A stretch of 64,000 nt of DNA, from the NCBI GenBank assembly GCA_000513055.1, contig AZYB01000002.1, positions 1 through 64,000 of the forward strand. The letters run 5' to 3'. Made by a program: the position numbers and the translations under genes. Source of the DNA: an alpha proteobacterium SCGC AAA288-N07. Its GTDB lineage: Bacteria > Pseudomonadota > Alphaproteobacteria > Pelagibacterales > Pelagibacteraceae. Positions 1,683-21,671 of this stretch are shown here, one piece after another. The notes under the pieces were generated by a model. It was not told the DNA's origin and searched no databases. It saw only the letters and a list, made by a program, of their open reading frames with translations. The stretch's first letter is position 1. Every line of letters begins with the position of its first letter.

Positions 1683-2534
1683 ATGGGAATTGTCATAGAA
1701 GTTTTTTTGCCCTTAGCTTTGGCCTTCATTATGTTTGTATTGGGGTCAGGACTTACAGGTAATGATTTTTTAAGAGTTGTAAAGCAACCTCGTGATTTTT
1801 TTGTAGGAGCTTTTTCTCAAATTATTTTGCTGCCAGTTATCGCATTCATTCTTGTAAAAATATGGTCTATTGCACCAGAATTAGCAATTGGAGTTATGAT
1901 TATTGCAGCAGCCCCAGGTGGTGTAACATCCAACCTATTAACTTCTTTTGCAAAAGGTGACGTGGCTTTATCAATATCACTTACGGCAATTATTAGTTTG
2001 TTGAGTGTCATTACAATCCCATTTATAGTTCTAACCTCAGCAAATTTGCTAGACGCATCAAATATTACCCAAAATATCTCATTAATAAGCATGTCACGAG
2101 ATATGTTTTTAATTGTTACAGTGCCAGTTATATTAGGTATGTTGTTTAGAAGATTTGCTTCAAGAGCAGCATTAGGATTTGAACCAATAGCAAAAAAAAT
2201 ATCTATTATTCTTTTTATACTTGTTTTATTGGGTGCAATTTTAGCACAAAGAGAAAATGTTGTTTCTTATTTTGTACAAGCAGGTCTGATAACTTTAGTA
2301 CTCAATGTAGTGATGATGGTTGTAGCATATTTTGTCGCCCAGTCACTTGCTTCAGGAACAGAACAAAAAAAATGTATTACAATTGAGTGTGGATTACAAA
2401 ATGGAACCCTTGCAATATTTGTAGCAACATCAATTTTTGGCGGAGGCATGTACGTCATTCCTGCAGCTACTTACAGTTTAATAATGTTTGCTACTTCTTT
2501 GATATTTGTATTTTTAGTTAGAAAAACTATTTAA
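1683..2534 (+). CDS. Bile acid:sodium symporter family (BASS) transporter
   Basis: Multi-TM protein with 'AAPGGVTSNLLTSFAKGDVALS' and 'IECGLQNGTLAIFVA' motifs. Confidence 0.85.
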   Translation: MGIVIEVFLPLALAFIMFVLGSGLTGNDFLRVVKQPRDFFVGAFSQIILLPVIAFILVKIWSIAPELAIGVMIIAAAPGGVTSNLLTSFAKGDVALSISLTAIISLLSVITIPFIVLTSANLLDASNITQNISLISMSRDMFLIVTVPVILGMLFRRFASRAALGFEPIAKKISIILFILVLLGAILAQRENVVSYFVQAGLITLVLNVVMMVVAYFVAQSLASGTEQKKCITIECGLQNGTLAIFVATSIFGGGMYVIPAATYSLIMFATSLIFVFLVRKTI

Positions 2535-2690
2535 ACTAAATAATTTAAGTTTGAAACATACCCAATCCATCAAGATATACATAATATGGTATTTAAATAT
2601 TTTTCTTAACTACATTTAGATATTATTTTTTCTTAATGGAGTTTTTTAATTTGTTGATGAATCAATATTTATGAAACATTATATCCTTAT

Positions 2691-2712
2691 TCAAAAGTTA
2701 TCAGACTTTTGA
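2691..2712. promoter_or_regulatory. 8-bp inverted repeat in the aapJ leader
   Basis: TCAAAAGT-TATCAG-ACTTTTGA, 38 nt upstream of the aapJ ATG. Confidence 0.35.
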
Positions 2713-2750
2713 GTTTATTGTTAACAATAAAAAATAAGAGGATAATAAAA

Positions 2751-3791
2751 ATGTATAAATACATTAAACAACTAACTTCTTTGTTAGCCGTATTTGTAGT
2801 TTTATTTGCATTTGCAAATGAAGCAATGGCAGCAAAGAAATCAAAAACTTTGAAGAACACTATTAAAAAGGGTTTTGTAAGATGTGGTGTTTCTCAAGGT
2901 CTTCCAGGATTTTCTAATGCAGATGCATCTGGAAACTGGTCAGGGGTTGACGTTGATGTTTGTAGAGCTGTTGCTGCTGCGGTGCTAGGTGATGCAAGTA
3001 AAGTAAAATTTACTCCACTAAGTGCTAAAGAAAGATTTACAGCTTTAACATCAGGTGAAATCGACATTTTATCAAGAAATACTACATGGACTTTGTCTCG
3101 TGACGCTGACATTGGTTTAACTTTTGTTGGAGTAAATTTTTACGATGGTCAAGGTTTCATGGTCAGAAAAGATTCTGGCATAACTTCTACTGACCAATTT
3201 AAAAGTGGTCTTTCTGCTTGTGTAAATATTGGAACTACAACAGAGCTAAATATGAGAGACTTTTTTACTTCAAAAGGTATTTCGTACGAGCCGGTTGTGT
3301 TTGAAAAAGCAGACGAAGTTGTTGCAGCTTACGATTCAGGAAGATGTGATACGTATACAACTGATAAATCTGGTCTAGCAGCTCAAAGAACTAAAATGAA
3401 AGATCCAGATGCTCATATAGTATTACCTGAAACGATTTCAAAAGAACCTTTGGGTCCTGTTGTTCGTCAAGGTGATTCAGTTTGGGAAGACATAGTTCGT
3501 TGGTCTCTATACGTTATGATTGAAGCTGAAGAGTACGGTATTAATTCTTCAAATGCTTCTGCTATGAAAGCTTCAGAAAATCCACAAATTAAAAGACTTG
3601 TTGGAGCTGAAGGTGAATTAGGAGCGGCTTTAGGAATAGGCAATGATTGGAGTTTTAACATTATTACACAAGTTGGTAATTATGGTGAAAGCTACAAACG
3701 TAATATCGCAGATACTGGTATATTACCTGATAGAGGTCCTAATGAGCTTTGGACAAAAGGTGGTATTCTTTACGTAGCACCAGCTAGATAA
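2751..3791 (+). CDS. aapJ: General L-amino acid ABC transporter substrate-binding protein
   Basis: Signal peptide ending '...ANEAMA'; 'VRCGVSQGLPGFSNADASGNWSGVDVDVCRAVAAAVLGD' typical of AapJ/BztA; followed by permeases and ATPase. Start moved to the ATG at 2751. Confidence 0.93.
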   Translation: MYKYIKQLTSLLAVFVVLFAFANEAMAAKKSKTLKNTIKKGFVRCGVSQGLPGFSNADASGNWSGVDVDVCRAVAAAVLGDASKVKFTPLSAKERFTALTSGEIDILSRNTTWTLSRDADIGLTFVGVNFYDGQGFMVRKDSGITSTDQFKSGLSACVNIGTTTELNMRDFFTSKGISYEPVVFEKADEVVAAYDSGRCDTYTTDKSGLAAQRTKMKDPDAHIVLPETISKEPLGPVVRQGDSVWEDIVRWSLYVMIEAEEYGINSSNASAMKASENPQIKRLVGAEGELGAALGIGNDWSFNIITQVGNYGESYKRNIADTGILPDRGPNELWTKGGILYVAPAR

Positions 3792-5060: not shown

Positions 5061-6322
5061 TTAAGAGATTAAATTTTTTAGGAACACCTAGTAGGGATAA
5101 ATTAAATCTATTTATCTCAATAGGAGTTTTCCTTTTTGTATTAGGTATAGCTGATGTGATACTCAATTCTTTTTTCGAAATAAATATTACTTCTATTTTA
5201 CCAAGGTTGTTTAATTATTTTACACCACTAATTTTTGGTTTTATTGGTCTTCATTATATTAGAATTGAATTTTCAGGAAATAGAATATTGGATAATTTAA
5301 ATAAAAATATAAATTCAAATTGGTTCAATGCTGTATTATCTTTGTTGATTATCTTCGTTCTAATTCAAAATATCCCACCTTTATTAAATTGGTTATTTTT
5401 TGATGCAAATTTTGTAGGAGAAACAAAAGAAGAATGTACAGGTAGTGGTGCTTGTTGGATTTTTATTAAGACTTGGTTTCCGCGTTTTATATATGGGTTG
5501 TATCCAAATGCTGAAATTTGGAGGATTAACCTTACTTTTTTAATGTTAATTGCACTAGTAATCTCCGGATTTTTTGTGCCTCCTAAAATTAAAAAATATA
5601 TAATTATTTTTCTTTTATTTATTTTTCCGTTCATCGCTATTAATTTAATTTCTGGTGGAAATTTCGGATTGGAATGGGTTGAGACTACTGCATGGGGAGG
5701 ACTTTCTCTTACATTTATTATTTCAATTTTTGCTCTTCTATTTTGTTTCCCAATAGGAATGTTTTTAGCCTTGGGAAGAAGATCTTTAGCTCCAGTTATT
5801 AGATATTCATCAATAGGCTTTATCGAATTTTGGAGAGGCGTTCCTTTAATTACAGTTCTATTTATGGCTTCAGTAATGATGCCAATGTTTTTACCTGATG
5901 GAACATATATGGATAAGCTTGTAAGAGTTATAATTGCCATTACACTTTTTGAAGCTGCTTACATGGCAGAAGTAATACGTGGTGGTCTACAAGCCTTACC
6001 TAGGGGGCAATATGATGCTGGAAAATCTCTTGGAATGGGTTATTGGAGAATGCACTTACTTGTAATTTTACCTCAAGCATTAAAACTCGTTATTCCTGGA
6101 ATTGCTAATACCTTTTTGGCTCTAGTAAAAGATACTCCTCTTATTTTAGTTGTGGGGTTACTTGAGTTAGTAGGAATGATAGATATGGCCAAGAGCAATC
6201 CTGATTGGCTTGGTTTTGCTACAGAAGGATATATATTTGCAGGTATTGTTTTTTGGATTATCTGCTATTCTATGAGTAGATATAGTCAATCTCTAGAAAG
6301 AAAATACAAAACAGACAGATAA
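5057..6322 (+). CDS. aapM: Amino acid ABC transporter permease
   Basis: 'DAGKSLGMGYWRMHLLVILPQALKLVIPG'; ATGA overlap with aapQ. Confidence 0.9.
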   Translation: MIKRLNFLGTPSRDKLNLFISIGVFLFVLGIADVILNSFFEINITSILPRLFNYFTPLIFGFIGLHYIRIEFSGNRILDNLNKNINSNWFNAVLSLLIIFVLIQNIPPLLNWLFFDANFVGETKEECTGSGACWIFIKTWFPRFIYGLYPNAEIWRINLTFLMLIALVISGFFVPPKIKKYIIIFLLFIFPFIAINLISGGNFGLEWVETTAWGGLSLTFIISIFALLFCFPIGMFLALGRRSLAPVIRYSSIGFIEFWRGVPLITVLFMASVMMPMFLPDGTYMDKLVRVIIAITLFEAAYMAEVIRGGLQALPRGQYDAGKSLGMGYWRMHLLVILPQALKLVIPGIANTFLALVKDTPLILVVGLLELVGMIDMAKSNPDWLGFATEGYIFAGIVFWIICYSMSRYSQSLERKYKTDR

Positions 6323-6329
6323 TTAAATT

Positions 6330-7064
6330 ATGTCAGATCAAATTATACAAATGGAAAATGTGAATAAGTGGTTTGATGACTTTCAAGTTCTAAAAGATAT
6401 AAATCTTGAAGTTAGACAGAAACAGAGAATCGTAGTGTGTGGACCATCTGGATCGGGAAAATCTACTTTAATTAGATGTATTAATAGATTGGAAGAACAT
6501 CAGAAAGGAAAAATTGTAGTTGATGGAATTGAGCTTTCTGAAAATACAAAAAATATTGAACAAGTAAGAGCTGAAGTTGGAATGGTTTTTCAACAATTTA
6601 ATTTATTTCCACATTTATCAATTTTAGATAATTGTTCATTGGCACCTATATGGGTAAAAAAAATACCAAAAAAACAAGCAGAGGAACAAGCATTAAAAGA
6701 ATTAGAAAAAGTTCAAATATTAGATCAAGCTAAAAAATTTCCAGGCCAATTATCTGGAGGACAACAGCAAAGAGCTGCTATTGCAAGAGCTCTGTGTATG
6801 GAACCGAAAATTATGCTTTTCGATGAACCTACCTCAGCTTTAGACCCAGAAATGATCAAAGAAGTTTTGGACGCTATGGTTAATTTGGCAAAAGCTGGAA
6901 TGACTATGATTGTAGTTACTCACGAAATGGGCTTTGCAAAAGAAGTTGCTGATGAAGTTATTTTTATGGATGAGGGCATGATTGTTGAAAAAGCAGCCAC
7001 CAAAGAATTTTTTGCAAATCCTAAGAGCGATAGAACTAAACTCTTTTTAAGCCAAATCCTCTAA
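6330..7064 (+). CDS. aapP: Amino acid ABC transporter ATP-binding protein
   Basis: Walker [10 protein letters not shown], signature LSGGQQQR, Walker [15 protein letters not shown]. Confidence 0.95.
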
Positions 7065-7097
7065 CATTAGCGAAGATACGTTTATGCTTTAATATAA

Positions 7098-7778
7098 ATG
7101 TTTAAGAAATTATTATTATTATCAATTATTATTCAATTATATTTTAATTCAGCTTTTGCCCATGCTTTACATTATCAAAAATTAAATAAATTAGAATTTG
7201 ATATTTACAGAAATAATAAACTAGTTGGCCATCATATTTACCTTTTTAATAAAAAAAATAAATACTTCACTGTAAAAAATAAAATCGATTTTAAAATAGA
7301 AATATTAGGCGTCGAAATATATAGCTATTCTTCTGAAGGCATAGAAAAATATATAAATGGAAAATTAGATAGTTTTTCTTCTAAAACTAATCACAATAAA
7401 AAAAAAAAGTATTGTAAAATTTATAAAAAAGAAAATAAATTTTTTATAGAAGGCTCTTCATACAAAGGTATTACGCCAGAAAAATTTATGATTGGAACAT
7501 GGTGGAATCATGAAATAGTTAAATCTAAAATTCAAATTAGCTCAGCATCTGGAAGAATAATTGAACAAACAGTCAGCTTTATTGGTAAAGAAACTGTAGA
7601 AATCAATAATGTAAAATATACAGCATTAAAATTTAATTTTTTTTCATCAGACCCCAGTTTGTCAAAAGATAAAAAATTAAACACTAATATTTGGTATGAC
7701 GAAAAATCTTTGACGTGGTTAAAAGCTTCTTTTGATAAGAATGGATATTGGGAATATAGATTAAAATATATTGACTAA
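7098..7778 (+). CDS. Secreted DUF6134-like protein
   Basis: Signal peptide and 'FDIYRNNKLVGHH...' opening typical of this family. Confidence 0.55.
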   Translation: MFKKLLLLSIIIQLYFNSAFAHALHYQKLNKLEFDIYRNNKLVGHHIYLFNKKNKYFTVKNKIDFKIEILGVEIYSYSSEGIEKYINGKLDSFSSKTNHNKKKKYCKIYKKENKFFIEGSSYKGITPEKFMIGTWWNHEIVKSKIQISSASGRIIEQTVSFIGKETVEINNVKYTALKFNFFSSDPSLSKDKKLNTNIWYDEKSLTWLKASFDKNGYWEYRLKYID

Positions 7779-7831
7779 TTTAATTAATTAATTTTTTTAA
7801 ATACAGCGATGGCTTTTTTTTAAGATCTGTC

Positions 7832-7857
7832 AACAATAAAATTCATATGTTATTGTT
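7832..7857. promoter_or_regulatory. Inverted repeat AACAATAA-N10-TTATTGTT upstream of the XRE regulator
   Basis: Perfect 8-bp inverted repeat 90 nt upstream of the HTH gene start. Confidence 0.35.
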
Positions 7858-7946
7858 AATTTTACATTAAAAAATTTCTAATTTTATACTTGCAATAATA
7901 TTAATTTTAAGGTTGAATTTGTTTTTTTCTAATTGAGGGGTCTAAG

Positions 7947-8330
7947 ATGGTAGAAGATTTTAATAAGCATTTAGGTAATATGTTGAAAATGCGCAGACTA
8001 GCCTTGGGTTTGACGCAGACTAAGGTTGCAAAAGCAATTAATGTTACTTTTCAACAAATTCAAAAATATGAAAAAGGAATTAATGGAGTTAGCTCAACAA
8101 GACTATTGCAATTATCAAATTATTTAAAAGTTCCAATAAATTATTTTTTTGATAACTTTGCTGAATATTTAAATAAATCAAATAAAAATAATGAAGACGG
8201 TATTTCAGTTAATTTCAGTTTTCTTCTGAATATTTATTCAGATTTAACACCAGAGCAAAAAACTAAACTTAAGAAACTAATGAGCAACGAAATTGACAAT
8301 GTAAATACAGTAAACACAAAATTAGGTTAA
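7947..8330 (+). CDS. XRE-family helix-turn-helix transcriptional regulator
   Basis: 'MRRLALGLTQTKVAKAINVTFQQIQKYEKGINGVSSTRLLQLSNYLKVP' HTH_3. Confidence 0.92.
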   Translation: MVEDFNKHLGNMLKMRRLALGLTQTKVAKAINVTFQQIQKYEKGINGVSSTRLLQLSNYLKVPINYFFDNFAEYLNKSNKNNEDGISVNFSFLLNIYSDLTPEQKTKLKKLMSNEIDNVNTVNTKLG

Positions 8331-8334
8331 CTAT

Positions 8335-8410
8335 TGGCTCCTCGGGCAGGACTCGAACCTGCGACCAATTGATTAACAGTCAACTGCTCTACCAACTGAG
8401 CTACCGAGGA
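8335..8410 (-). tRNA. tRNA-Asn (GTT)
   Basis: Full cloverleaf; anticodon loop CTGTTAA; encoded CCA; GGTTCGAGTCC T-arm. Confidence 0.96.
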
Positions 8411-8461
8411 ATGTAATAATTACTCAAGATACTTTTTTTTTATTACAACTCAAGTTTTTTA

Positions 8462-8535
8462 TGGAGGCCACGCCCAGAATCGAACTGGGATACAAGGATT
8501 TGCAATCCTCTGCGTAACCATTCCGCCACGTGGCC
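8462..8535 (-). tRNA. tRNA-Cys (GCA)
   Basis: Cloverleaf; anticodon loop TTGCAAA; encoded CCA. Confidence 0.95.
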
Positions 8536-8591
8536 AAGTTTAAATAAATTCAATCTTTGTTTTTTAATAAATTATTATATGTTTGTATATA

Positions 8592-11231
8592 ATGCAAAAT
8601 CCTAATTACAACCATTTAAATATAGAAAAAAAAATTTACGAATATTGGGAGAAAAACAAATTTTTTAAGCCTAAAAGAAGTAAGAAAAAATATTTTTCCA
8701 TTGTAATACCACCACCTAATGTAACAGGAAATTTACACATGGGTCACGCATTAAATAATTCATTGCAGGATTTGTTAGTGCGTTTTTATAGAATGAATGG
8801 CTATGAAACTTTATGGCAACCAGGTACAGATCATGCTGGTATAGCAACTCAAGCAGTTGTTGAAAAAAAATTATCAGAAAAGGGAATCAGTAAAAATCAA
8901 TTAGGAAGAGACAATTTTGTTAAAGAGGTTTGGAAATGGAAAGAAGAATATGGAAATCAAATTCTTAATCAACTTAAAAAGTTAGGATGTTCATGTGACT
9001 GGTCACGTAATAGATTTACAATGGATGAAAATTTATCCAAAGCAGTAATAAAAACATTTGTTCAGCTTTATAAAAAAAAAATAATTTATAAAGATACAAA
9101 ATTAGTTAATTGGGATACAAAATTAGAAACTGCAATATCAGATTTGGAAGTTGAACAAAAAGAAGTTCAATCAAATCTTTATTATATAAAGTACAAAATT
9201 GATGGAGAAAATAATTTTCTAACAATAGCTACCACAAGACCGGAAACAATGCTTGGAGATACAGCTGTGGCTGTTAATCCAAAGGATGAAAGATATAAAA
9301 ATTATATTGGGAAAAAAATAATTGTACCAATTGTAGAAAGAAAAGTGAAAATAATCGCAGATAAATATGTTTCTATAAACCAGGGTTCGGGTGTACTTAA
9401 AGTAACCCCTGCCCATGATTTTAATGATTTTGAAATTGGAAAAAGGCACAAACTTGAATTTATAAATATTTTTGAAAAAAATGGTAAATTAAATAGTGTA
9501 GCTCCAAAAGAGTTAATAGGAGTAGATCGTTTTATAGCTAGAAATATAATTGTGAAAACACTTAAGGAAAAAAATTTATTAGAGAAAATTGTAAATATAA
9601 AAAATGCTTTACCTTTTGGAGATCGTTCAAGCTCAATTATAGAACCTTTACTAACGGAACAATGGTTTGCCGATGCAAAATTTTTAGCCAAAAAAGCTAT
9701 AGAAGTAGTTAAAAAAAAAAAGACTATTTTTTTTCCAAATAATTGGTCAAAAACTTATTTTCAATGGATGTATAATATACAACCTTGGTGTATCTCAAGA
9801 CAATTATGGTGGGGACACAGAATACCAGCTTGGTACTCGAAAGATAAAAAAATTTTTGTTGCTGAAAATGAACATCAAGCAAATAAAATTGCCAAAAAAT
9901 ACTATAAAAAAAATGTTGAATTAAAAAGAGATGAAGATGTACTAGACACATGGTTTTCATCTGCTCTTTGGCCGTTTGCTACATTGGGGTGGCCAAAAAA
10001 AACTTATGAGTTAAAAAGATTTTATCCGACATCTGTACTTGTAACTGGATTTGATATCATTTTCTTTTGGGTTGCCAGAATGTTGATGATGGGAAATCAT
10101 TTAATTAAAAAGGAACCTTTTTCTAAAGTTTATGTTCATGCTTTAGTAAGAGATGAAAAAGGTCAAAAAATGTCTAAATCGAAAGGTAATGTTATTGATC
10201 CGCTTGACATAATTAATAAATATGGTGCTGACTCATTAAGATTTACTTTAATTTCAATGGCTGTTCCAGGAAGAGATATAAAATTTTCGGAAGATAGAGT
10301 AAAAGGTTATAGAAATTTTATTAACAAAATTTGGAATGCAAACAATTTTTCCAAACTAAATAGTTGCAAGCTTTCAAAAAAATTTAATATTAAAAAAACT
10401 AAAATTGATGTGAACAAATGGATATATTTTGAATTAGTTAAAACTAGCAACGAAGCAAAAAAGTATATATCAAATTTCAGATTTGATGAAGCGGCAAGAG
10501 TAATTTATCAGTTTGTTTGGCATTCTTATTGTGACTGGTATATTGAATTTTTGAAGCCAATTTTTAATTCTAACAATAAAAAAAATATTAAAGAGTCTCG
10601 TAATATGTCTTCTTTTATCCAATCAAATATATTAATTCTTTTACATCCATTTATACCATTTTTTACTGAAAGTCTTTGGCAAGATTCTAAATTCAACAAT
10701 TATTTTAAAATACCATTGATGTTTAAAAATTGGGATATAAAATCTCAATCAACTTTTAGTAAAAGTTATAAGAAAATTGATTGGCTAATCGATCTTGTAA
10801 CAAGCATAAGATCAACTAAAGTTGACTTAAATGTATCTCCAGGGTCATTTATCGATATTTCTACCGACGAATTAAATTCCAATAAAATAAGTATTATAAA
10901 TGATAATTTAGATGTATTTAAGAGAATAGGAAGAATTTCAGATATAAGTCATTCAAAATTAAATAAAAATGGAATAAAAATAATTGTTGGTGGACAGACT
11001 GTAACACTTTATTTTGATCAAAATTTGGATTTGAACGAACAAAAACAAAAAATATCCAACAAAGTTAAAGATTTAGATCAGAAAATAAATGGAATAAATA
11101 GCAAGTTAAAAAACAAATCTTTTTTAGAAAATGCTCCAAAACAGATAGTGCAAAAGGAAAAGAAAGCTCTAATAGAATATAAAATTGAACTTAAAAAGTT
11201 GAATAGTATTTTAAATAGTATTAAAAATTAA
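8592..11231 (+). CDS. valS: Valine--tRNA ligase
   Basis: '[21 protein letters not shown]', '[12 protein letters not shown]' and C-terminal coiled coil. Confidence 0.97.
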
Positions 11232-11233
11232 TT

Positions 11234-12949
11234 ATGAAATTCGATAAATCTAAACTACCAAGTAGACACGTTTCTGTAGGTGTCAAAAGTTCTGGGCATC
11301 GCTCAATGTATTATGCCATGGGTTTAAAAAAAGAAGATATTGAAAAACCTTTCATTGGTGTTGCAACTACATGGAATGAAGCTGCTCCTTGTAATATAAC
11401 TCTTTCTAGGCAGGCTCAGTCAGTAAAAAAAGGAGTTAAAGCGGCCGGAGGAACACCTCGTGAATTTACAACCATTACTGTTACTGATGGTATTGCAATG
11501 GGCCATGCTGGAATGAAATCATCTTTAATTAGTAGAGAAATAATAGCTGATTCTGTAGAACTAACAATGAGAGGACATTGCTACGATGCCCTTGTGGGAT
11601 TAGCTGGATGTGATAAATCGCTACCCGGTCTTATGATGGTTATGGTTCGATTAAATGTGCCTTCAGTTTTTATTTATGGCGGATCAATATTGCCAGGAAA
11701 TTTTAAGGGCAAAGATGTGACCATAGCAGATGTTTTTGAAGGTATAGGAAAACATTCTACTGGGGCAATGAGTAAAGAAGATTTATTTGAATTAGAAACA
11801 TTAGCTTGTCCATCCGGGGGTTCCTGTGGTGGTCAATTTACAGCCAATACTATGGCATGTGTTTCTGAAGCATTAGGTCTAGCATTACCAGGTTCAGCTG
11901 GCACACCAGCAGTATATGAGGAGCGCGATAAATTTTCTGTTTCAAGCGGAGAGGCTGTAATGCATTTATTAGAAAAAAAAATTAGACCCAGAGACATAGT
12001 TACTCGTAAATCTTTAGAAAATGCAGCAGTCGTAGTAGCTGCGTCTGGCGGATCTACTAATGCTGCTTTGCATCTACCTGCAATTGCAAATGAAGCAGGT
12101 ATTAAATTTACATTAGAAGATGTAACAAATATTTCAAAAAAAACACCCTATATTGCAGATCTTAAACCTGGCGGCAAATATGTTGCAAAGGATTTATATG
12201 AAATAGGCGGTGTCCCAATTTTAATAAAAGCTTTACTAGAAGGAGGTTTTTTACATGAGGATTGTATGACTGTTTCAGGAAAAACAATTGGTGAAAATCA
12301 TAAGGATATTATCTTTCCATCTGATCAAAAAGTAATTTACAAAACTTCTAAGCCATTAAATCCAACTGGAGGTTTTGTTGGATTAAAAGGAAATTTGGCA
12401 CCGGAAGGAGCTATTGTAAAAGTTGCTGGCATGAAAAGAAAAAAATTTAAAGGTAAGGCAAAATGTTTTGATAGTGAAAAATATGCATTGGATGCGGTTC
12501 TAAAAAGAAAGATCAAACCTGGAGATGTAGTTGTCATTAGGTATGAAGGACCAAAAGGAAGTCCAGGTATGCCAGAAATGTTATCTACTACCGCAGCTAT
12601 TTATGGACAGGGATTGGGTGAAGAGGTTGCTCTAATAACAGACGGCCGTTTTTCTGGAGCAACACATGGGTTTTGTGTTGGTCATGTTGGCCCAGAAGCA
12701 GCTAATTGCGGAGCTATAGGTTTAATTAAGAATGGTGATATCATAGAAATAGATGCTGAAAAAGGTTCGTTAAAAGTTCAGTTAACCAACAAAGAGTTGA
12801 TTAAACGAAAAAAAAAATGGAAACCAAAAAAGACTGAATATAATTCAGGAACATTGTGGAAATATTCTCAGTCTGTCGGTCCAGCATTTAATGGAGCAGT
12901 TACACATCCTGGCGCTTCTAAAGAAAAAAAATCTTACGCTGACATATAG
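11234..12949 (+). CDS. ilvD: Dihydroxy-acid dehydratase
   Basis: '[11 protein letters not shown]', '[16 protein letters not shown]', '[11 protein letters not shown]'. Confidence 0.97.
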
Positions 12950-12955
12950 TTAATA

Positions 12956-14161
12956 ATGAAAATAAAACCAGTTATTATGTGCGGCGGGGCAGGCACAAGG
13001 CTGTGGTCACAATCAAAAAAAAATATTCCAAAACAATTTATTAATTTTGGTGGTTGGACTTTATTTGAAAAAACTCTTCAAAGGATAAAAAATTCAATAT
13101 TTGATTATCCTATAATAAGTACGAATATAGCTTATGTAAATTTAGTTAGGAAATATCTACTAAAATCTAAAATTAAAAAATTTAAAATAATTTTAGAAAC
13201 TTCTAAAAAGAACACAGCACCTTCAATATTGTCGTCTGCTTTATTAAAAGAAATTCCACATAATCAATCTATGATTTTCTTATCAGCGGACCATTTAATT
13301 GAAAAAATTAAAAAATTTAACAAGTCAATTATGTTAAACAAAAAATTTCTAAACGAAAACAATATTTTTATTTTTGGTATTAAACCGACTACACCATCAT
13401 CTGAATATGGTTATTTTTTAACAAAAAAAATTTCAATAAATATTAATAAAGTCGATAGATTCATTGAAAAACCTAACGTAAATATAGCAAAAAAAATTAT
13501 AAAAAAAAAGGGTTATTGGAATTCAGGAATTTTTTTTGCAAGAAAAGACTCAATAGTAAATAATTTTAAAAAGTACCAGCCTAAAATATTCAAGCTATGT
13601 AATGATGCGGTAAATAAATCAACAATATATAAAAATGCTTATCAATTAAATGGAAATTCATTTAATAAATTAAAAGAAAAATCATTTGATTATGCAATTT
13701 TAGAAAAAGCAAAAAATATTAACGCTATTAAATTAAATATTCCATGGTCAGATCTAGGTAGCTGGAAAGAAATTTCTATGATTTTCTACAAAAATAAAAC
13801 CAACTACTATAATAAACGGAATGTTTTTAATAGACCTTGGGGTAAATATATTAACCTATATTCAGGAAATGGTTTTCTGGTAAAGGAAATTGTGGTTAAT
13901 CCAAAATCATCTATCAGTTTACAAAAACATCGTCACCGATCTGAACATTGGACAATTGTATTAGGTAGGCCTAAAATTACAATTAATAAAAAAAAATTTT
14001 TTATAAAAACAAATGATTCAATTTTTATTCCAAAAGGTTCAATTCATAGAATTGAAAATATTTACAAAAATCCTGTCAAAATTATTGAGATTCAAATTGG
14101 ATCAATTTTAAGAGAAACTGATATAATTAGATATAAAGATATTTATGGGAGAACTAATTAA
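12956..14161 (+). CDS. manC: Mannose-1-phosphate guanylyltransferase / mannose-6-phosphate isomerase (type II, ManC-like)
   Basis: 'VIMCGGAGTRLWSQSKKNIPKQF', 'FIEKPN', C-terminal cupin 'RPWGKY...SLQKHRHRSEHWTIVLG'. Confidence 0.88.
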   Translation: MKIKPVIMCGGAGTRLWSQSKKNIPKQFINFGGWTLFEKTLQRIKNSIFDYPIISTNIAYVNLVRKYLLKSKIKKFKIILETSKKNTAPSILSSALLKEIPHNQSMIFLSADHLIEKIKKFNKSIMLNKKFLNENNIFIFGIKPTTPSSEYGYFLTKKISININKVDRFIEKPNVNIAKKIIKKKGYWNSGIFFARKDSIVNNFKKYQPKIFKLCNDAVNKSTIYKNAYQLNGNSFNKLKEKSFDYAILEKAKNINAIKLNIPWSDLGSWKEISMIFYKNKTNYYNKRNVFNRPWGKYINLYSGNGFLVKEIVVNPKSSISLQKHRHRSEHWTIVLGRPKITINKKKFFIKTNDSIFIPKGSIHRIENIYKNPVKIIEIQIGSILRETDIIRYKDIYGRTN

Positions 14162-14163
14162 TA

Positions 14164-15282
14164 ATGGAAAAAAATAGAAATTTGAAAAAAAAAAAACATT
14201 TGAAATTAGGTTTTATAGGTGGTGGTATAAATTCCACAATTGGCAAGATCCACTACCTTGCAAGTAAACTTGATGACAATTGGAAACTCGAATCTGGTTT
14301 TTTTAGCAGAGATCAAAAAGACAATATTAAAAGTGCAAAAGAATTTGGCGTTCCATTAAATAGAAACTACAATAAATTTGAATTATTTCTCAAAAAAGAA
14401 AAAAAATTATTAGATGCCGTTTCTCTGATAACACCTCCTGAAACTCACTTTTATTATTTAAAAAAATTACTTGAAAAAAATTTTTTTGTTATTTGTGATA
14501 AACCATTAGTAGTTAGTTCTACAGAAATTAAAAAAATAAAGAAAATTAAAAATTATCGAAATTTAAGAATTACCTATAATTATACAGGATATCCTATAGT
14601 TAGAGAATTAAAAAAAATTATTTCTGAAAAAAAGCTTGGAAAAATTAAAAAAATTTTATTTGAAATGCCTCAAGATGCACTTACAAATAATTCAAGGAAA
14701 AAAATTAAAATTAAAAACTGGAGATTAAAAGATAGGCATTTGCCAAATATTTGTTATGACCTAGGATCTCATTTATTTAATTTAGCTAATTTTCTACTTT
14801 TAGAAAATCCAAGTAGTGTATTTGGTAATTACTTTAATTCTTCAGGAATTAAAAATATTCATGATAATGCCATGATTATGCTAAAATATAAAAGCGGCAT
14901 CAATGGCTTTTTATGGTTTGGTAAATCTGCAGTAGGTTATAGAAATGGATTAAAACTTAGAATATTTGGAAAAAAAGGCTCATTAACATGGCACCAAATG
15001 AAACCAGAAGAATTTGAGCTATCTAAATTAGATGGTTCTATAATAAAATACGACCTATCGTCTAGCAATCTACAAAAAAATAATAAGGAATGTATAAGAT
15101 ATAAGCTTGGACACCCATCGGGTTTTATAGAAGCATTTGCTAATTCCTATAACGACATATCAAATTATTTTCAATCGAAAAGAACAGATTATACATTTGG
15201 TGTTAATGAGTCAGAGGATATTACTTTTTTATTAGAAAAATCTTTCGAGTCTCATAAAAAAAAAGCGTGGGTAAATGTATAA
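14164..15282 (+). CDS. Gfo/Idh/MocA family oxidoreductase
   Basis: Rossmann 'LGFIGGGINSTIGKIHY'; 'VSLITPPETHFYYLKKLLEKNFFVICDKPL' (EKP-like motif). Confidence 0.85.
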   Translation: MEKNRNLKKKKHLKLGFIGGGINSTIGKIHYLASKLDDNWKLESGFFSRDQKDNIKSAKEFGVPLNRNYNKFELFLKKEKKLLDAVSLITPPETHFYYLKKLLEKNFFVICDKPLVVSSTEIKKIKKIKNYRNLRITYNYTGYPIVRELKKIISEKKLGKIKKILFEMPQDALTNNSRKKIKIKNWRLKDRHLPNICYDLGSHLFNLANFLLLENPSSVFGNYFNSSGIKNIHDNAMIMLKYKSGINGFLWFGKSAVGYRNGLKLRIFGKKGSLTWHQMKPEEFELSKLDGSIIKYDLSSSNLQKNNKECIRYKLGHPSGFIEAFANSYNDISNYFQSKRTDYTFGVNESEDITFLLEKSFESHKKKAWVNV

Positions 15283-15291
15283 TTTTTACTG

Positions 15292-16260
15292 ATGAAAATT
15301 TTGATATATGGGGCAGGTGCAATTGGGTGCCATTTGGCTTATTGTTTAAATGATAATAATCATATTACATTATTGGCAAGAGGGCAGCACTATAGAGAAA
15401 TAAAGAAAAATGGCTTGATTGTTAAAATATATAATAACAAAAAATTACTTAAGAAAAAAAAATTATTAATTAATGAAAATTTAAAAATATTTGATGATTT
15501 TATAAAAATTAAAAATATTAAATATGATGTAGTTTTTATAACTGTAAAAATAAAAGATTATAATTCAATCTTAATAAATAATATTAAAAAAATTATTAAA
15601 CCCAACAGCGCAATAATAACTCCATGTACTGGATTTTCCAATTGGTGGTTTGAAAAAATTTTTAATAAGAAAAATAAAAAAGGTTTTAACATAAAAAATG
15701 TAATTGCCATGACAATGTGGCTCTCATCTAAAATTGAAAAACCCGGATCAATATGCGTTAAACATATTCAAAGAGGATATCCAATGAAAGAAGTAAATAT
15801 TTCCTCAAAAAATAAAACAGATTTTCTAAGAAAAAACATTAAAAAACATTGCAAATCACCAATAATAAAAAATGCTGAAAGTGAAATATATATTAAAACA
15901 ATTAATGCTTTTGCTTTTAACTTGGTAGCTCTAATTACAGGATTTACTAATAAAGAATTAAAAAAAGATGCAGACTCAATTGAAAAAATAAAAAAAACAA
16001 TGAATGAATTTGATTTAATTATCAAAAGCTTAGGCATAAAAATATATCAATCTATTGACAGTCGAGTTGAACAAACTTTAATGAGCAATGAACATACAAT
16101 GAGCATGCTGAATGATCTCAACAATAGAAGAAAAATTGAAATAAAGTATTTATGGAAAAATCTTGAGATCTTTTTAAAACTATCTAATCGAAAAGCACCA
16201 TTTACCAATTCATTATATAATTTATTGTTGAAAAAAATAAAAAATAAAAATGTTTTATAA
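15292..16260 (+). CDS. Ketopantoate reductase-like (ApbA/PanE family) oxidoreductase
   Basis: 'MKILIYGAGAIGCHLAYCLNDNNHITLLARG' and PanE C-terminal region. Confidence 0.8.
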   Translation: MKILIYGAGAIGCHLAYCLNDNNHITLLARGQHYREIKKNGLIVKIYNNKKLLKKKKLLINENLKIFDDFIKIKNIKYDVVFITVKIKDYNSILINNIKKIIKPNSAIITPCTGFSNWWFEKIFNKKNKKGFNIKNVIAMTMWLSSKIEKPGSICVKHIQRGYPMKEVNISSKNKTDFLRKNIKKHCKSPIIKNAESEIYIKTINAFAFNLVALITGFTNKELKKDADSIEKIKKTMNEFDLIIKSLGIKIYQSIDSRVEQTLMSNEHTMSMLNDLNNRRKIEIKYLWKNLEIFLKLSNRKAPFTNSLYNLLLKKIKNKNVL

Positions 16261-17305
16261 TAAAATAAATAAAATTTTTAAAAAAAATAACAACGATGTT
16301 TTTATTGTTGGTGAGATTTCAGCTAACCATAATGGTAAAATAAAAAATATATATAAAATAATTAACCAAAATAAAAAGATTGGATTAGATGCAATTAAAG
16401 TTCAAATATATAATCCAAATAATATTACGATAAATTCTAATAAACCAGATTTTTTATTAAAAAAAAATAATCCATGGAACAAGTATAAAAATTTATATAA
16501 CTTATATAATAAAGCCCAGACACCAAAAAATTGGTATCCAAAAATTCTTTCAAAATGTAAAAAAAATAATCTAATTTTATTTTCTTCAGTTTTTGATAAC
16601 GATACTATAGATTTTTTAGAAAAATATAATTGTCCAATTTATAAAATTGCATCTCCAGAAATAACTGATATTCCTTTGTTGAAAAAAGTTGCTAGAACAA
16701 AAAAACCAGTAATTATTTCTAGTGGCTTATCAAAATATTCAGATCTTAAACTTGCTATATCAACATTAAAAAAAAATGGATGCAAAAAAATTATATTGCT
16801 TAAATGTACTTCTAGTTATCCTGCGCCAATAAGTGAATTGAACCTAAAAACTATGAATAACTATAAAAAAAAATTCAATATAGAAATCGGATTTTCTGAT
16901 CATTCAAAAGGAAATTTAGCAGCAGTTGTTGCCGCAGCCAATGGAGCAAAAATTATAGAAAAACATATTTTGTTGAATAGAAAAGAAAAAACTGTCGATA
17001 GCTTTTTTTCTTCTGATATTCATCAATTTACAAAATTAGTTAAAAATATAAGGAGTGTTGAAAAAATTTTAGGTAAAGTTAATTATGCAATTACAAAAAG
17101 TTCAAAAAAGAATATTTCAGGAAAAAAATCTATTTATGTTTTTAAAGATATAAAAAAAAATGAGAAATTTTCTAAATCAAACATTAAATGTGTTCGCCCA
17201 CATTTTGGGTTACATCCGAGATATTTCAATTCCGTAATTGAAAAAAGATCAAAAAAAGACCTTTATAAGGGAGATAGATTAAAACTAGAGTATGTAAAAA
17301 AATGA
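16250..17305 (+). CDS. N-acetylneuraminate synthase family protein (NeuB/PseI/LegI-like) with C-terminal SAF domain
   Basis: 'FIVGEISANHNGKIKNIYKII', 'YKIASPEITDIPLLKKVA', 'IGFSDHSKGNLAAVVAAANGAKIIEKHI', SAF 'VRPHFGLHPRYF'. Confidence 0.9.
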   Translation: MFYNKINKIFKKNNNDVFIVGEISANHNGKIKNIYKIINQNKKIGLDAIKVQIYNPNNITINSNKPDFLLKKNNPWNKYKNLYNLYNKAQTPKNWYPKILSKCKKNNLILFSSVFDNDTIDFLEKYNCPIYKIASPEITDIPLLKKVARTKKPVIISSGLSKYSDLKLAISTLKKNGCKKIILLKCTSSYPAPISELNLKTMNNYKKKFNIEIGFSDHSKGNLAAVVAAANGAKIIEKHILLNRKEKTVDSFFSSDIHQFTKLVKNIRSVEKILGKVNYAITKSSKKNISGKKSIYVFKDIKKNEKFSKSNIKCVRPHFGLHPRYFNSVIEKRSKKDLYKGDRLKLEYVKK

Positions 17306-17559
17306 AGAAAGAAAAAGAAATTGCTAAATTTATTATTCTTAGATTAAAAAAAATTAATCAACTAAAATTTTTGAAAGTTAGAGCAATCGAAACTATCAAT
17401 ATATTAACTGATGAACGCATTGATTCTCTTCAATTAATGAATTTAATAGTTTCCATAGAAACAAAATTTAATATCAAGTTAAATCAGCAAAGTTTTTTTG
17501 ATAGAAAAAAATTAATACTTAAAGACTTAATTAAAATTGTATCAAAAAAAATTAAATAA
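17302..17559 (+). CDS. Acyl carrier protein-like protein
   Basis: 85 aa helical protein with phosphopantetheine-type site 'ERIDSLQLMNLI'; ATGA overlap with the synthase gene. Confidence 0.75.
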   Translation: MKKEKEIAKFIILRLKKINQLKFLKVRAIETINILTDERIDSLQLMNLIVSIETKFNIKLNQQSFFDRKKLILKDLIKIVSKKIK

Positions 17560-19007
17560 TGAAAAATCTTTATTCGATTTTTTTAAATAACCTAAAAAAA
17601 AATAATTATATATATCAAAATGGAAAATCTTTTACTTTTAAGGAAATTAACAATTATGTGATCATAATTTCTAGATTTATTCATGCTCATAAAAAAATTA
17701 ATAAAATCTTAGTAATAAGTGAAAATCAGATAGATAATATTGCTGTAATGCTAGCTGCAGCAAAACTAAATAAAACAATTATTCCTTTAAACATTGGCCT
17801 GCATATAGATCAGATCATAAAAATTAGAAAAATTATAAAACCAGATATAGCAATACTATCAAAAAATTTTTTACATTATAAAAAATATTTTTTTAAAAAG
17901 GTTATTTTTTTTGAAAATATTTTAAATATCAAGGAAAAAAATTTATTTTCTCCCACGGTAAATAGTTCCAAAAATAAAAAATTTATTATAACATTTTCTT
18001 CTGGTACCACTAGCCAACCTAAACCAATAATATTTTCCCAGAATACAAAATATTATAGATTTCAACATATTAAAAAAACATTTGATGTAAAAAATAAAGA
18101 TGTAATTTTAAATTTCTCAACTCTTGATCATTCTCTGGGGCAGAGGATTTTTCTGTTAGCACTTTTAAATGGAAATTCATTAATTTTTCAAAAAAAATTA
18201 AATATTTATCATCTAAAAAAATTAATAAAAAAATTTAATATATCATTCTCAATACTACCATCTAATTATCTCAAAATTCTCAAAAAGTATATTTTATCCA
18301 ATAAAATAAAAATAAAAAAAGTTGTTTCTGCGGCATCAGGCATTTCGCTGGATGAAAAATTAAGTTTTTTTAATTCTAAAATTAAATTTTATGAAATGTA
18401 TGGCGCATCTGAAATTGGAACGATTACTAGTCTTTCAAAATCTGATGGTATAAAAAAATTTAAATCAGTAGGAAAAGTTTTAAATGGGGCTAAAATTAAA
18501 ATTTTAGATGATAACAGAAAAACACTTAATCACTATAAGGTTGGTGAAATTAGCTGCAAAACAAATTTAAAATTTGAAAATTATTTTAATAATAAAAAAC
18601 TAACTAGCAGATCTTTTTACAAAGGCTATTTTCTAACAGGTGATCTTGGATATCTTGATAACAAAAAGTATTTATATTTCGTATCAAGAAAAAGAGATTT
18701 AATTATTACAAGTGGATTAAACATATATCCAAGTGATATTGAAAATAAAATAAGCAAACTAAAAAATATTAAGGAAGTTGCAGTAATTGGCCTAGAAGAT
18801 GAATATTATGGAGAGGTAGTGTCCGCTGTTTGTGTATTAAAAAAAAAAAGCAACAACTATGAAACGAAAATAAGAGGTTTTTTATTAAAAAGCTTAGCTA
18901 CTTTTCAACAACCCGTGAATTATTTTTTTGTAGAAAAATTACCAAAAAATTCACTTGGAAAAGTTTTAAAATATAAATTAAGAAAAAAATTTCACAAAAA
19001 AATTTAA
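17559..19007 (+). CDS. AMP-dependent synthetase/ligase (ANL superfamily)
   Basis: 'FSSGTTSQPKPIIFS' P-loop, 'EMYGASEIG', 'YFLTGDLGYLD', 'RKRDLIITSGLNIYPSDIE', C-terminal Lys motif 'NSLGKVLKYKL'. Confidence 0.88.
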   Translation: MKNLYSIFLNNLKKNNYIYQNGKSFTFKEINNYVIIISRFIHAHKKINKILVISENQIDNIAVMLAAAKLNKTIIPLNIGLHIDQIIKIRKIIKPDIAILSKNFLHYKKYFFKKVIFFENILNIKEKNLFSPTVNSSKNKKFIITFSSGTTSQPKPIIFSQNTKYYRFQHIKKTFDVKNKDVILNFSTLDHSLGQRIFLLALLNGNSLIFQKKLNIYHLKKLIKKFNISFSILPSNYLKILKKYILSNKIKIKKVVSAASGISLDEKLSFFNSKIKFYEMYGASEIGTITSLSKSDGIKKFKSVGKVLNGAKIKILDDNRKTLNHYKVGEISCKTNLKFENYFNNKKLTSRSFYKGYFLTGDLGYLDNKKYLYFVSRKRDLIITSGLNIYPSDIENKISKLKNIKEVAVIGLEDEYYGEVVSAVCVLKKKSNNYETKIRGFLLKSLATFQQPVNYFFVEKLPKNSLGKVLKYKLRKKFHKKI

Positions 19008-20557
19008 TGAAAAAAATATTAATAAGAACAAATTTTGATGAGAAAATAGGTCTAGGTCATATAATGAGAATGTTTTATTTTGCAAGTTATTTAAAAAAAA
19101 AAAAATTTATAATTTATTTAGCATTAGATAGAAATATAAATAAATTTTCAAATTTTTTACGTTTGAAATTTTCTTTCTGTAATATTATTTATATTTACGA
19201 CAAGACTAAATTTAATAATCAATTAGAAGATGCAAATAAGATAAAAAAAATTGTAAATGGATTTAATATTACTCATATAATTATTGATGATTACAGAATT
19301 AACAAAACATGGGAAAAATTTTTTTTTAAAAAACAAAAAATTATAGTTTTTTCAGATTTAGATAACAAAAAACACCTATGCGATTTTATAATCGATTCAA
19401 GATGGCTAGGTAAATTTACCCACAGTAGATATAAGGGAAATCTACCAAAAGTTACAAAAAAACTTTTAGGACCTAAATATGCAATTATTAATCATAACCT
19501 AAAAAAAACTATAAAAAATAAAAAATTTATTATTACTTTCTATCTAGGTGGTGGAGGAAATTTTAATATGATCAAAAATACTATTATAAGTTTATCTAAA
19601 TTAATTAATGAAAAAAAATATAAAAATATTTCAATATATTTAATTGTTGGACCAACAATAGTTAATTTTAAAAAAAAAAACCTAAAAAAAAAACATATAA
19701 GAGTTATTAAAAATAGTTATGATATTTCAAAAATATTACAAAAAACAAGTTTTTTTGTAGGAGTTTCAAGTTCAATAATTTATGAACTGAACTATTTAGG
19801 TATACCATCATTAATTTTTCCAACAACCTCCAACCAAATAAATAAAGATAATGACCTAGAAGATATGGGTTTTTATTTTAATATGGAAAAATCAAATTTA
19901 ATATACTCTAAAAAAATTAGTCAGTTTATATTACAAATATATCATAAATATATAAGAATAAAAAAATTAACTAAAAAAAGAAAAATCGAAGTTGACAATA
20001 AAGGTGTAGAAAGAATTTATAGTATAATTTTTAAAAATAAAAAAATATTTAAAAAAATCATTTTCAAAGATCCAAATTATAATAGTATTTCAATTGTAAG
20101 AGATAATTTAGTAAATTATTATTTAAATTGCAGAAATCTAAAAAGCAATAGGGATAATAGTGTGAATAGAAAATTAATTAAAAAAATAGATCATTATTTA
20201 TGGTGGTTTCTTAATAACTTTAAACACTACTATTTTGCAAAAAATAATAAGATAATTATTTTTTTAAGTCATAAACTCATAAAAAGGGAAAACTATTTCA
20301 TTGGTAGCTGGTTTAAAACTTTTGAAAAAGTTAGTATTTTAGATATTTTAAAAGTACTTAATTGGCAGCTTAAAAATATGAAAAAAAAATATAGATGGTT
20401 AGCGGTAATAAAAAAATCGAATAAATTAGTTTTTAAAATTAATACTTATTTAAAATTTAAAAAAATAAATCCTATTTATGATTCTAAGAGCATTAATTTT
20501 TTGGTAAACCATTATAAAATAAAAAATAAAAGTAATTATTATTTTTTAGAAAAATAA
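19007..20557 (+). CDS. PseG-like UDP-sugar hydrolase/glycosyltransferase with about 170-aa C-terminal GNAT-like extension
   Basis: 'LIRTNFDEKIGLGHIMRMFYFASYLKKK' (PseG GxGHxxR), 'DDYRINKTWE', 'FVGVSSSIIYELNYLGIPSLIF'; extension aligns by eye to GNAT layout (weak). Confidence 0.7.
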   Translation: MKKILIRTNFDEKIGLGHIMRMFYFASYLKKKKFIIYLALDRNINKFSNFLRLKFSFCNIIYIYDKTKFNNQLEDANKIKKIVNGFNITHIIIDDYRINKTWEKFFFKKQKIIVFSDLDNKKHLCDFIIDSRWLGKFTHSRYKGNLPKVTKKLLGPKYAIINHNLKKTIKNKKFIITFYLGGGGNFNMIKNTIISLSKLINEKKYKNISIYLIVGPTIVNFKKKNLKKKHIRVIKNSYDISKILQKTSFFVGVSSSIIYELNYLGIPSLIFPTTSNQINKDNDLEDMGFYFNMEKSNLIYSKKISQFILQIYHKYIRIKKLTKKRKIEVDNKGVERIYSIIFKNKKIFKKIIFKDPNYNSISIVRDNLVNYYLNCRNLKSNRDNSVNRKLIKKIDHYLWWFLNNFKHYYFAKNNKIIIFLSHKLIKRENYFIGSWFKTFEKVSILDILKVLNWQLKNMKKKYRWLAVIKKSNKLVFKINTYLKFKKINPIYDSKSINFLVNHYKIKNKSNYYFLEK

Positions 20558-20577: not shown

Positions 20578-21351
20578 TTAATTAATTTTACATTCAATAG
20601 GAGTGTGATCTGAAGGTTTAATTTTAGATCTGGGTTGTTTATTTATATTTACAAATTTAATATTATTTAAGAGATTATTTGATACTAAAAAATGATCAAT
20701 CCTCATTCCGTAATTATTTTGCCAAGATCTAGCCTGGTAATCCCAAAAAGTATATTCTTTTTTATCATTATTGAAGTATCTATAAATATCATGAAAGCCT
20801 AGGTTAATTAATTCTCTAAATTTTTTTCTAATTTCTAATTTAAATAAAGCATCATCTTCATATTTTTTGTAATCGTACACATCAATTTTATCTGGGATAA
20901 TGTTGAAGTCTCCTCCAATAATAATATTACCATAATCTACTATAGTTTTCTTTATGCGCTTTATTAATAAATCTAGCCATTCTTTTTTGTAACTATATTT
21001 TTCCGTTTCAACTGGATTGCCATTAGGCACATATATATTTATTAGCTTGATTGTTTTTGTATTTATTTTTGTATCACCCTTTATTATTCTTGCTTGATCT
21101 GGTTTGTTGCTCAGGAAATCAAAGTCAATATTTTCAATTTTTTTTTTTGATAAAAAAGCTACACCATTATAGCTTTTTTGGCCCAGAACATATGATTTGT
21201 AACCAACCTTTTCGAATTCATTAAATGGAAAGTTTTTTTCTTCAGTTTTTATTTCTTGCATCATCAGTATATCCGGTTTTGATGATTTCAAATAAATTAA
21301 AATATTTTCTATTCTCGCTCTTACTGAGTTAACATTCCACGATGACAATAC
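20578..21351 (-). CDS. xthA: Exodeoxyribonuclease III
   Basis: 'SSWNVNSVRARIENILIYLKSSKPDILMMQEIKTEE', 'IIGGDFNIIPDKIDV', 'RIDHFLVS', 'PSDHTPIE'; start moved to MVLSSWN. Confidence 0.93.
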   Translation of the reverse strand, partial: VLSSWNVNSVRARIENILIYLKSSKPDILMMQEIKTEEKNFPFNEFEKVGYKSYVLGQKSYNGVAFLSKKKIENIDFDFLSNKPDQARIIKGDTKINTKTIKLINIYVPNGNPVETEKYSYKKEWLDLLIKRIKKTIVDYGNIIIGGDFNIIPDKIDVYDYKKYEDDALFKLEIRKKFRELINLGFHDIYRYFNNDKKEYTFWDYQARSWQNNYGMRIDHFLVSNNLLNNIKFVNINKQPRSKIKPSDHTPIECKIN

Positions 21352-21353
21352 CA

Positions 21354-21671
21354 TTAAATAGAAAATGATATTCCACAACCGCAAGATGATTTGATTTTAG
21401 GATTAGATATTTTAAAAGAAGTTCCCATTAGCTCAGAAACATAATCTACTTCTGAACCTCTTAAAAGTTCTAACGAACTCTTATCAATGAGAATATTATT
21501 TATTTTTTTGTCTTCTTGATCAATATTTTTATCAAAAGAAAAATCATATTTGAAACCAGAACAACCTCCGCCTAATACAGATAATCTAAAGAAGGTACCA
21601 GGTTCTTTTTTAGACACGAGCCAATCAACTTGTTTTATTGCTTTTTCGGTAAATTTTATTTCATTAATCAT
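21354..21671 (-). CDS. erpA: Iron-sulfur cluster insertion protein ErpA/IscA family
   Basis: 'RLSVLGGGCSGFKYDFSFD' and 'SSCGCGISFSI' Cys motifs. Confidence 0.9.
   Translation of the reverse strand: MINEIKFTEKAIKQVDWLVSKKEPGTFFRLSVLGGGCSGFKYDFSFDKNIDQEDKKINNILIDKSSLELLRGSEVDYVSELMGTSFKISNPKIKSSCGCGISFSI

Follow-up and report, generated by a model that had tools for sequence, protein, structure and literature searches.

What does a cluster that joins a nonulosonate synthase to an acyl carrier protein (ACP) and an acyl-activating ligase produce in an uncultured marine SAR11 bacterium? The question is raised by a locus in the window analysed here, a 64,000-nucleotide stretch of DNA from the alphaproteobacterium SCGC AAA288-N07 (Pelagibacteraceae; contig AZYB01000002.1 of assembly GCA_000513055.1, positions 1 to 64,000 of the forward strand). 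We consider it probable that the six genes inserted here specify the later steps of a variant pathway to pseudaminic acid (Pse), a sialic-acid-like sugar of bacteria. An ANL-superfamily ligase and the ACP would deliver a non-acetyl acyl group to a GNAT-fold domain fused to a PseG-like hydrolase (the fusion is called PseG* below), replacing the PseH that depends on acetyl-coenzyme A (acetyl-CoA). Within the window this reading draws on the equivalog-level PseI, the PseG fold, and a GNAT fold that has PseH among its matches and has lost the P-loop. Among homologous loci it draws on the association with ANL ligases, the scarcity of PseH, the ACP machinery of locus L127, the gene order of L118 and the PseB and PseC of L113. 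Precedents in LuxI-type synthases and in Aeromonas add to it. The features concerned are:

12956..14161, + strand: manC, mannose-1-phosphate guanylyltransferase/mannose-6-phosphate isomerase, a backbone gene outside the insert
14164..15282, + strand: gfo, Gfo/Idh/MocA oxidoreductase, by Pfam
15292..16260, + strand: panE-like gene, 2-oxoacid reductase of the ApbA/KPR family (PF02558/PF08546)
16250..17305, + strand: pseI, pseudaminic-acid-type nonulosonate synthase with a C-terminal SAF domain
17302..17559, + strand: acp, stand-alone acyl carrier protein (PF00550)
17559..19007, + strand: anl, ANL-superfamily acyl-activating ligase (PF00501 and PF13193)
19007..20557, + strand: pseG*, PseG-like UDP-sugar hydrolase fused to a GNAT-fold domain
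20060..20554, + strand: C-terminal part of pseG*, the GNAT-fold 'DHxxWW' domain, from a predicted model and homologue alignment
20578..21384, - strand: xthA, right-hand backbone flank

The initial annotation of this DNA had described seven co-directional open reading frames (ORFs) with overlaps of 1-11 nucleotides. They are present exactly at these positions, consecutive cluster ORFs overlapping by 11, 4, 1 and 1 nucleotides, and Pfam and NCBIfam agree with the families that it had named: ManC, Gfo/Idh/MocA, PanE-like, NeuB with SAF, ACP, ANL, and PseG-like with an extra C-terminal region.

The class of sugar is indicated by the synthase. PseI scores 404.7 bits with TIGR03586, above the equivalog cut-off of 340.25, does not pass the NeuB equivalog cut-off, and has the pseudaminic acid synthase 8h2c as its best Protein Data Bank (PDB) match (7e-83). 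In a maximum-likelihood tree of 46 NeuB-family proteins it falls within a supported clade, 12 of whose 13 members belong to PseG* loci (for the L044 protein, PseG* lies on another contig of the same genome), and its nearest kin belong to the acp/anl-type SAR11 loci L118, L130 and L044. The PseIs of Pseudoalteromonas are placed elsewhere in the PseI tree; the acyl module has therefore been combined with different PseIs. Placement of the NeuB-like protein in a non-nonulosonate family, the outcome that the annotation had said would weaken its proposal, was checked and is rejected by the TIGR03586 score, the PDB match and the tree; its reading of a nonulosonate cluster is supported and narrows to the pseudaminic type. 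Another SAR11 NeuB locus, L045, encodes at 6217-8265 a 682-residue protein in which a cytidylyltransferase-like domain is joined to a class III aminotransferase; the gene adjoins those for a DegT aminotransferase and for a PseI that shares 52% identity with the one in the window.

The second key protein is PseG*. Its whole predicted model (predicted local distance difference test score, pLDDT, 88.8) has Campylobacter jejuni PseG in complex with uridine diphosphate (UDP; 3hbn) as top PDB match (1.6e-11). The last ~170 residues have no Pfam match; the C-terminal domains of the window, L113, L116 and L122 likewise give no Pfam GNAT match, whereas canonical fusions do. The AlphaFold2 model of this domain (pLDDT 91.3) has GNAT topology and finds 234 PDB matches at E<=0.001 in Foldseek; the 50 of them that were listed are GNAT-type acetyltransferases or uncharacterised proteins and include the PseH structures of Helicobacter pylori (4ri1) and C. 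jejuni (4xpk/4xpl). When 20 homologous C-terminal domains (25-36% identity to that of the window) are aligned, a D-H-x-x-W-W and a later Asn prove invariant, and a profile built from nine canonical PseH domains can be aligned with the PseG* domain over 139 columns (hhalign E 1.2e-4), placing DHxxWW opposite EHxxWF. The extra domain, correctly noticed in the annotation but not recognised for its GNAT fold and probable PseH-replacing role, appears from modelling and locus association to stand in for PseH. The DHxxWW motif offers an annotation handle for a domain that Pfam searches miss.

The same alignments bear on the acyl donor. The P-loop motif (Q/R)xxGx(G/A), whose loop binds the pyrophosphate of CoA (PMC4964394), is absent at the beta4-alpha3 position in 20/20 PseG* domains, and the motif or a close form of it is present in 9/9 canonical PseH domains compared; chance GxA matches in L113 and L115 lie elsewhere in the domain. 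An acyl-ACP would not present the pyrophosphate group of CoA in the same way, and the loss is suggestive of an ACP donor.

A further line of evidence is the distribution of the module. A motif-led scan of GTDB genomes yielded, together with the window, 20 PseG* loci, which were compared with 27 control PseG loci lacking the domain. The hosts are SAR11, Pseudoalteromonas, another gammaproteobacterium, another alphaproteobacterium and a Flammeovirgaceae genome. An ANL ligase is found in 19/20 PseG* loci but in 1/27 controls (Fisher p 5.5e-11, uncorrected for relatedness), the sole control being L155 with its ANL about 4 kb away, while canonical PseH shows the opposite distribution (1/20 against 16/27). 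An ACP is adjacent or nearby in 12/20 PseG* loci, and L114 and L117 have one on the same strand some 9 kb downstream; where coverage extends far enough, it mostly stands between pseI and anl or right before anl/pseG*. The only locus without ANL, L127 (Flammeovirgaceae), holds an ACP, KAS-III, a MaoC-ketoreductase fusion, a HAD-family protein (FkbH-like by resemblance alone) and a methyltransferase, as would be expected if the acyl group were built on the ACP.

Two loci link the module to the front half of the pathway. L118 (Pelagibacteraceae AH-326-K23) has the order radicalSAM-pseI-acp-anl-pseG*-pseF, followed by pseC (404.9 against a cut-off of 423.5) and pseB, and keeps the pseI-acp-anl-pseG* order of the window with overlaps. 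In Pseudoalteromonas luteoviolacea (L113), PseB (541.6 bits) and PseC (541.8 bits), both above their equivalog cut-offs, are encoded beside gfo, anl, pseG*, acp and pseI, and the locus adjoins a flagellin gene. Other types of PseG* locus exist: some SAR11 loci also encode LuxE, LuxC, a FabA-like dehydratase, radical SAM, a FabG-like short-chain dehydrogenase/reductase and a split transketolase, and a third type adds an aldehyde dehydrogenase and radical SAM. Among the controls, L155 (G715:C51, 8524-15397) is an alphaproteobacterial canonical PseG-PseH fusion with its P-loop present and an ACP and ANL 3-4 kb away; it is the only one to hold both, and may represent an intermediate state.

The putative acyl-supplying genes of the insert look intact. 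The ACP passes PF00550 (22.6 bits, cut-off 20.8) and carries the DSL attachment motif (..ERIDSLQL..); the ANL ORF has the core motifs FSSGTTSQPK, YGASEIG and TGDLG and a C-terminal Lys (NSLGK). The earlier suggestion that this ACP/ligase pair supplies the acyl group is most likely right. The window Gfo is 36-38% identical to the Gfo of four Pseudoalteromonas PseG* loci, and the gfo-panE pair recurs in G345:C26 (44%/51% identity), where a PseI and a radical SAM gene accompany it, so that the sequence comparison identifies gfo and panE as a real sub-module; Gfo may make or tailor the acyl acid or the sugar. As for the PanE-like protein, a score of 109 bits with NF005089 (cut-off 223) does not establish it as a true ketopantoate reductase, and its closest SAR11 relative adjoins gfo and a PseI; together these favour a role in the Pse pathway over service as the organism's own ketopantoate reductase. 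That it produces a 2-hydroxy acid is a guess.

From these elements a pathway can be proposed. PseB and PseC, encoded elsewhere, would make UDP-4-amino-4,6-dideoxy-beta-L-AltNAc. The ANL ligase would adenylate a small carboxylic acid and load it onto the dedicated ACP; this acid is probably a hydroxy acid that the Gfo and PanE-like reductases help to make or tailor. The predicted GNAT-fold domain of PseG*, assigned the place of PseH by its fold and locus association, would then move the acyl group from acyl-ACP rather than acetyl-CoA onto the 4-amino group. By homology, the N-terminal PseG domain would release UDP and PseI would condense the sugar with phosphoenolpyruvate, giving a Pse whose N-7 bears a group other than acetyl; a cytidine monophosphate (CMP)-transferase encoded elsewhere would activate this sugar for a surface glycan.

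Where could the remaining genes be? The assembly of the window's genome comprises 955 kb in 81 contigs and is only 66% complete, so that gene absences are weak evidence. PseB is encoded outside the insert on contig C35 (TIGR03589, 464.7 against 407.75), and contig C13 encodes two PseF-like domains (130 and 64 bits, below the cut-off of 205.7). The view that missing PseB, PseC and CMP-transferase genes make the pathway unusual is not supported, given these finds and the presence of such genes within the L113 and L118 loci. A complete Pse or legionaminic acid (Leg) pathway elsewhere in the genome is rejected for this partial assembly: its sole full-length NeuB is that of the window, and a second hit (28.5 bits, C13) is a DAHP-synthase-like protein.

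The two contigs hold further unusual genes. On C35 (L104, G000:C35, 1939-4267), PseB is followed by a class III (glutamate-1-semialdehyde-like) aminotransferase in place of PseC. Since Aeromonas pse islands also hold class III aminotransferases together with an alpha/keto reductase (PMC7874193), a non-orthologous route instead of PseC is possible there. On C13, L009 (G000:C13) encodes at 2231-3613 a protein that combines a Family-2-like glycosyltransferase with a PseF-like cytidylyltransferase domain. At 5277-11756 the same locus has genes for Gfo, DAHP-synthase-like, radical SAM, histidinol-phosphate-aminotransferase-like and shikimate-dehydrogenase-like proteins and for a fusion of a PseF-like domain with a SAM methyltransferase, adjoining a masked stretch of ~5 kb, possibly a ribosomal RNA (rRNA) operon and HVR2-like. 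This cluster gives the impression of an unusual surface or secondary-metabolite locus, of nonulosonate or shikimate type.

The limits of the insert follow from synteny. manC, whose product scores 354.5 bits with TIGR01479, adjoins ilvD in 8/8 relatives examined and directly abuts xthA in the same-genus genomes G001 and G004 and in G011 and G012, where the backbone order is valS-ilvD-manC-xthA-erpA-dgt-argS. Given these empty sites, manC belongs to the backbone and the insert consists of six genes, gfo-panE-pseI-acp-anl-pseG*, at 14164-20557 between manC and xthA. The annotation had counted ManC in the cluster and derived a possible branch from sugars linked to guanosine diphosphate (GDP); the first is rejected and the second is not supported, as manC is conserved with valS and ilvD and does not travel with the cluster. 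In G019, G007 and G036, genes other than the window's cluster come after manC. Those in G019 (L106, 6255-8311) are a DNA cytosine methyltransferase-like gene and a neighbour of 281 codons, which may form a restriction-modification pair; tuf and ribosomal genes come next.

Composition is a poor guide to the origin of the insert. The cluster had been described as richer in A, Lys and Asn than its flanks. This is true mainly against ilvD (G+C content 0.37, compared with 0.18-0.26 for the six insert genes); against manC, dgt, argS and valS (0.24-0.27), acp and pseG* are the only insert genes that stand out (0.18-0.19). A foreign origin argued from composition is weak: G+C at third codon positions and Lys/Asn/Ile content of the insert are near those of manC, dgt and argS. 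Neither a transfer RNA (tRNA) gene next to the insert nor a direct repeat at its ends was found, a search of IMG/VR confirmed no PseG* homologue, and a plasmid search gave no match over the whole of PseG* (matches listed had <=26% identity and <=77% query coverage). We therefore reject a mobile element.

How well does the proposed pathway withstand other explanations? Several points weigh against it. The hydrolase part of PseG* scores 130 bits with TIGR03590, under the cut-off of 153.55; the hhalign probability for the PseG* domain against canonical PseH is just 56% despite the E-value; no PseC was detected among the DegT hits of the 66%-complete assembly, the hit on C5 lying within a deoxysugar cluster; the association counts take in related SAR11 loci, so that the loci are not independent; and several of the remaining PseG* loci stop before an ACP could appear. 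Moreover, ANL enzymes are mostly CoA ligases and commonly produce acyl-CoA, and the best PDB matches of the window's ANL are CoA ligases. This last point opens an unlikely alternative: within a Pse-type pathway, the ANL would make acyl-CoA, the GNAT-fold domain would use it through an atypical P-loop, and the ACP would serve another step, for example building the acid. H. pylori PseH, which binds and uses acetyl-CoA with an atypical P-loop, is a precedent (PMC4964394), and P-loop loss is for that reason no proof of ACP use. The recurrent place of the ACP beside anl and pseG* speaks for the ACP as donor, as does L127, which holds ACP-type machinery alone.

Less probable again is an acyl group that goes to another position or another sugar, with the C-terminal domain of PseG* a plain acetyltransferase. 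The Aeromonas group II islands, which carry ACP, ANL, luxE and luxC with a separate PseH and for which a lipo-sugar was proposed (PMC7874193), illustrate such an arrangement. The PseG* loci are different, with canonical PseH nearly absent and ANL nearly always present, unlike the control PseG loci, and acp, anl and pseG* are overlapping neighbours in the window and in L118. That the insert is a decaying or non-functional acquired fragment seems very improbable. It holds just the back half of a pathway, is AT-rich and is absent from close relatives; yet every ORF is intact with translational overlaps, the pseI-acp-anl-pseG* order is kept in L118, the gfo-panE pair is kept beside PseI in G345, and catalytic motifs are retained. 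Acyl-ACP delivery to PseG* within a Pse pathway accordingly remains our preferred reading.

A wider proposal, to which we would give an even chance, is that the DHxxWW domain represents an undescribed GNAT-fold family of amino-sugar N-acyltransferases that gave up the P-loop for acyl-ACP donors. It would form the fixed socket of a plug-in system, in which a PseG*/PseI core combines with interchangeable acyl modules (ANL and ACP with gfo/panE; ANL, aldehyde dehydrogenase and radical SAM; ANL, LuxE/LuxC, FabA-like, FabG and transketolase; or KAS-III and MaoC-ketoreductase) to diversify position 7 of Pse across marine bacteria. PseG*, ACP and ANL together are a compact candidate system for non-acetyl groups on pseudaminic acid, and the occurrence of the module in culturable Pseudoalteromonas beside flagellin genes makes it testable. 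If true, the proposal would help to account for differences in surface sugars within SAR11, whose members rank with the most abundant bacteria in the sea.

Part of this picture is already known. Many nonulosonic and amino sugars of bacteria are well known to bear uncommon N-acyl groups such as formyl, 3-hydroxybutyryl and malyl, as a review on marine bacteria documents (PMC3210612), and Pse loci with an ACP and a ligase have been described in Aeromonas (PMC7874193). A literature search covering few subscription journals returned no relevant paper on nonulosonate biosynthesis with ACP, ligase and acyltransferase or on SAR11 and nonulosonic acid, no account of enzymes for activating non-acetyl groups and placing them on pseudaminic acid, and no description of a P-loop-less GNAT-fold domain that replaces PseH, is fused to PseG and is linked to several acyl modules.

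Compared with the canonical PseB-C-H-G-I-F pathway of Helicobacter and Campylobacter, the system shares an equivalog PseI, a PseG-like domain and a GNAT-fold domain in the place of PseH, and module-bearing relatives have PseB, PseC and the CMP-transferase in their loci. It differs in that the stand-alone CoA-type PseH is replaced by a P-loop-less domain fused to PseG, a dedicated ACP and ANL are added, and the genes are here split over the genome. The alphaproteobacterial PseG-PseH fusions (L153, L157, L161, L165, L166, L169) have the same order of hydrolase then GNAT domain, but their GNAT domains are recognised by Pfam (Acetyltransf_3/1) and retain the P-loop, and neither ANL nor ACP occurs in the loci concerned.

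The group II polar-flagellin glycosylation islands of Aeromonas combine pse genes with an ACP, an AMP-dependent synthetase, a ketoacyl-ACP reductase, luxE and luxC; the acyl genes were interpreted by the authors as fatty-aldehyde or lipo-sugar functions (PMC7874193). They closely resemble the LuxE/LuxC-type SAR11 loci L114, L117 and L124; the window cluster, in contrast, has neither luxE nor luxC and is flanked by housekeeping rather than flagellar genes. In the published description of these islands, pseG and pseH are separate genes. Like the SAR11 region HVR2 (PMC2217521), the insert carries surface-sugar genes, and in relatives several PseG* loci have an rRNA-like or a masked rRNA-sized stretch next to them, but the window insert lies elsewhere, between manC and xthA. 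Finally, LuxI-type acyl-homoserine lactone synthases are N-acyltransferases of GNAT-like fold that take their acyl group from ACP (PMC8188788); the PseG* domain resembles them in fold and in the ACP donor proposed here, with no sequence kinship shown and with a different acceptor.

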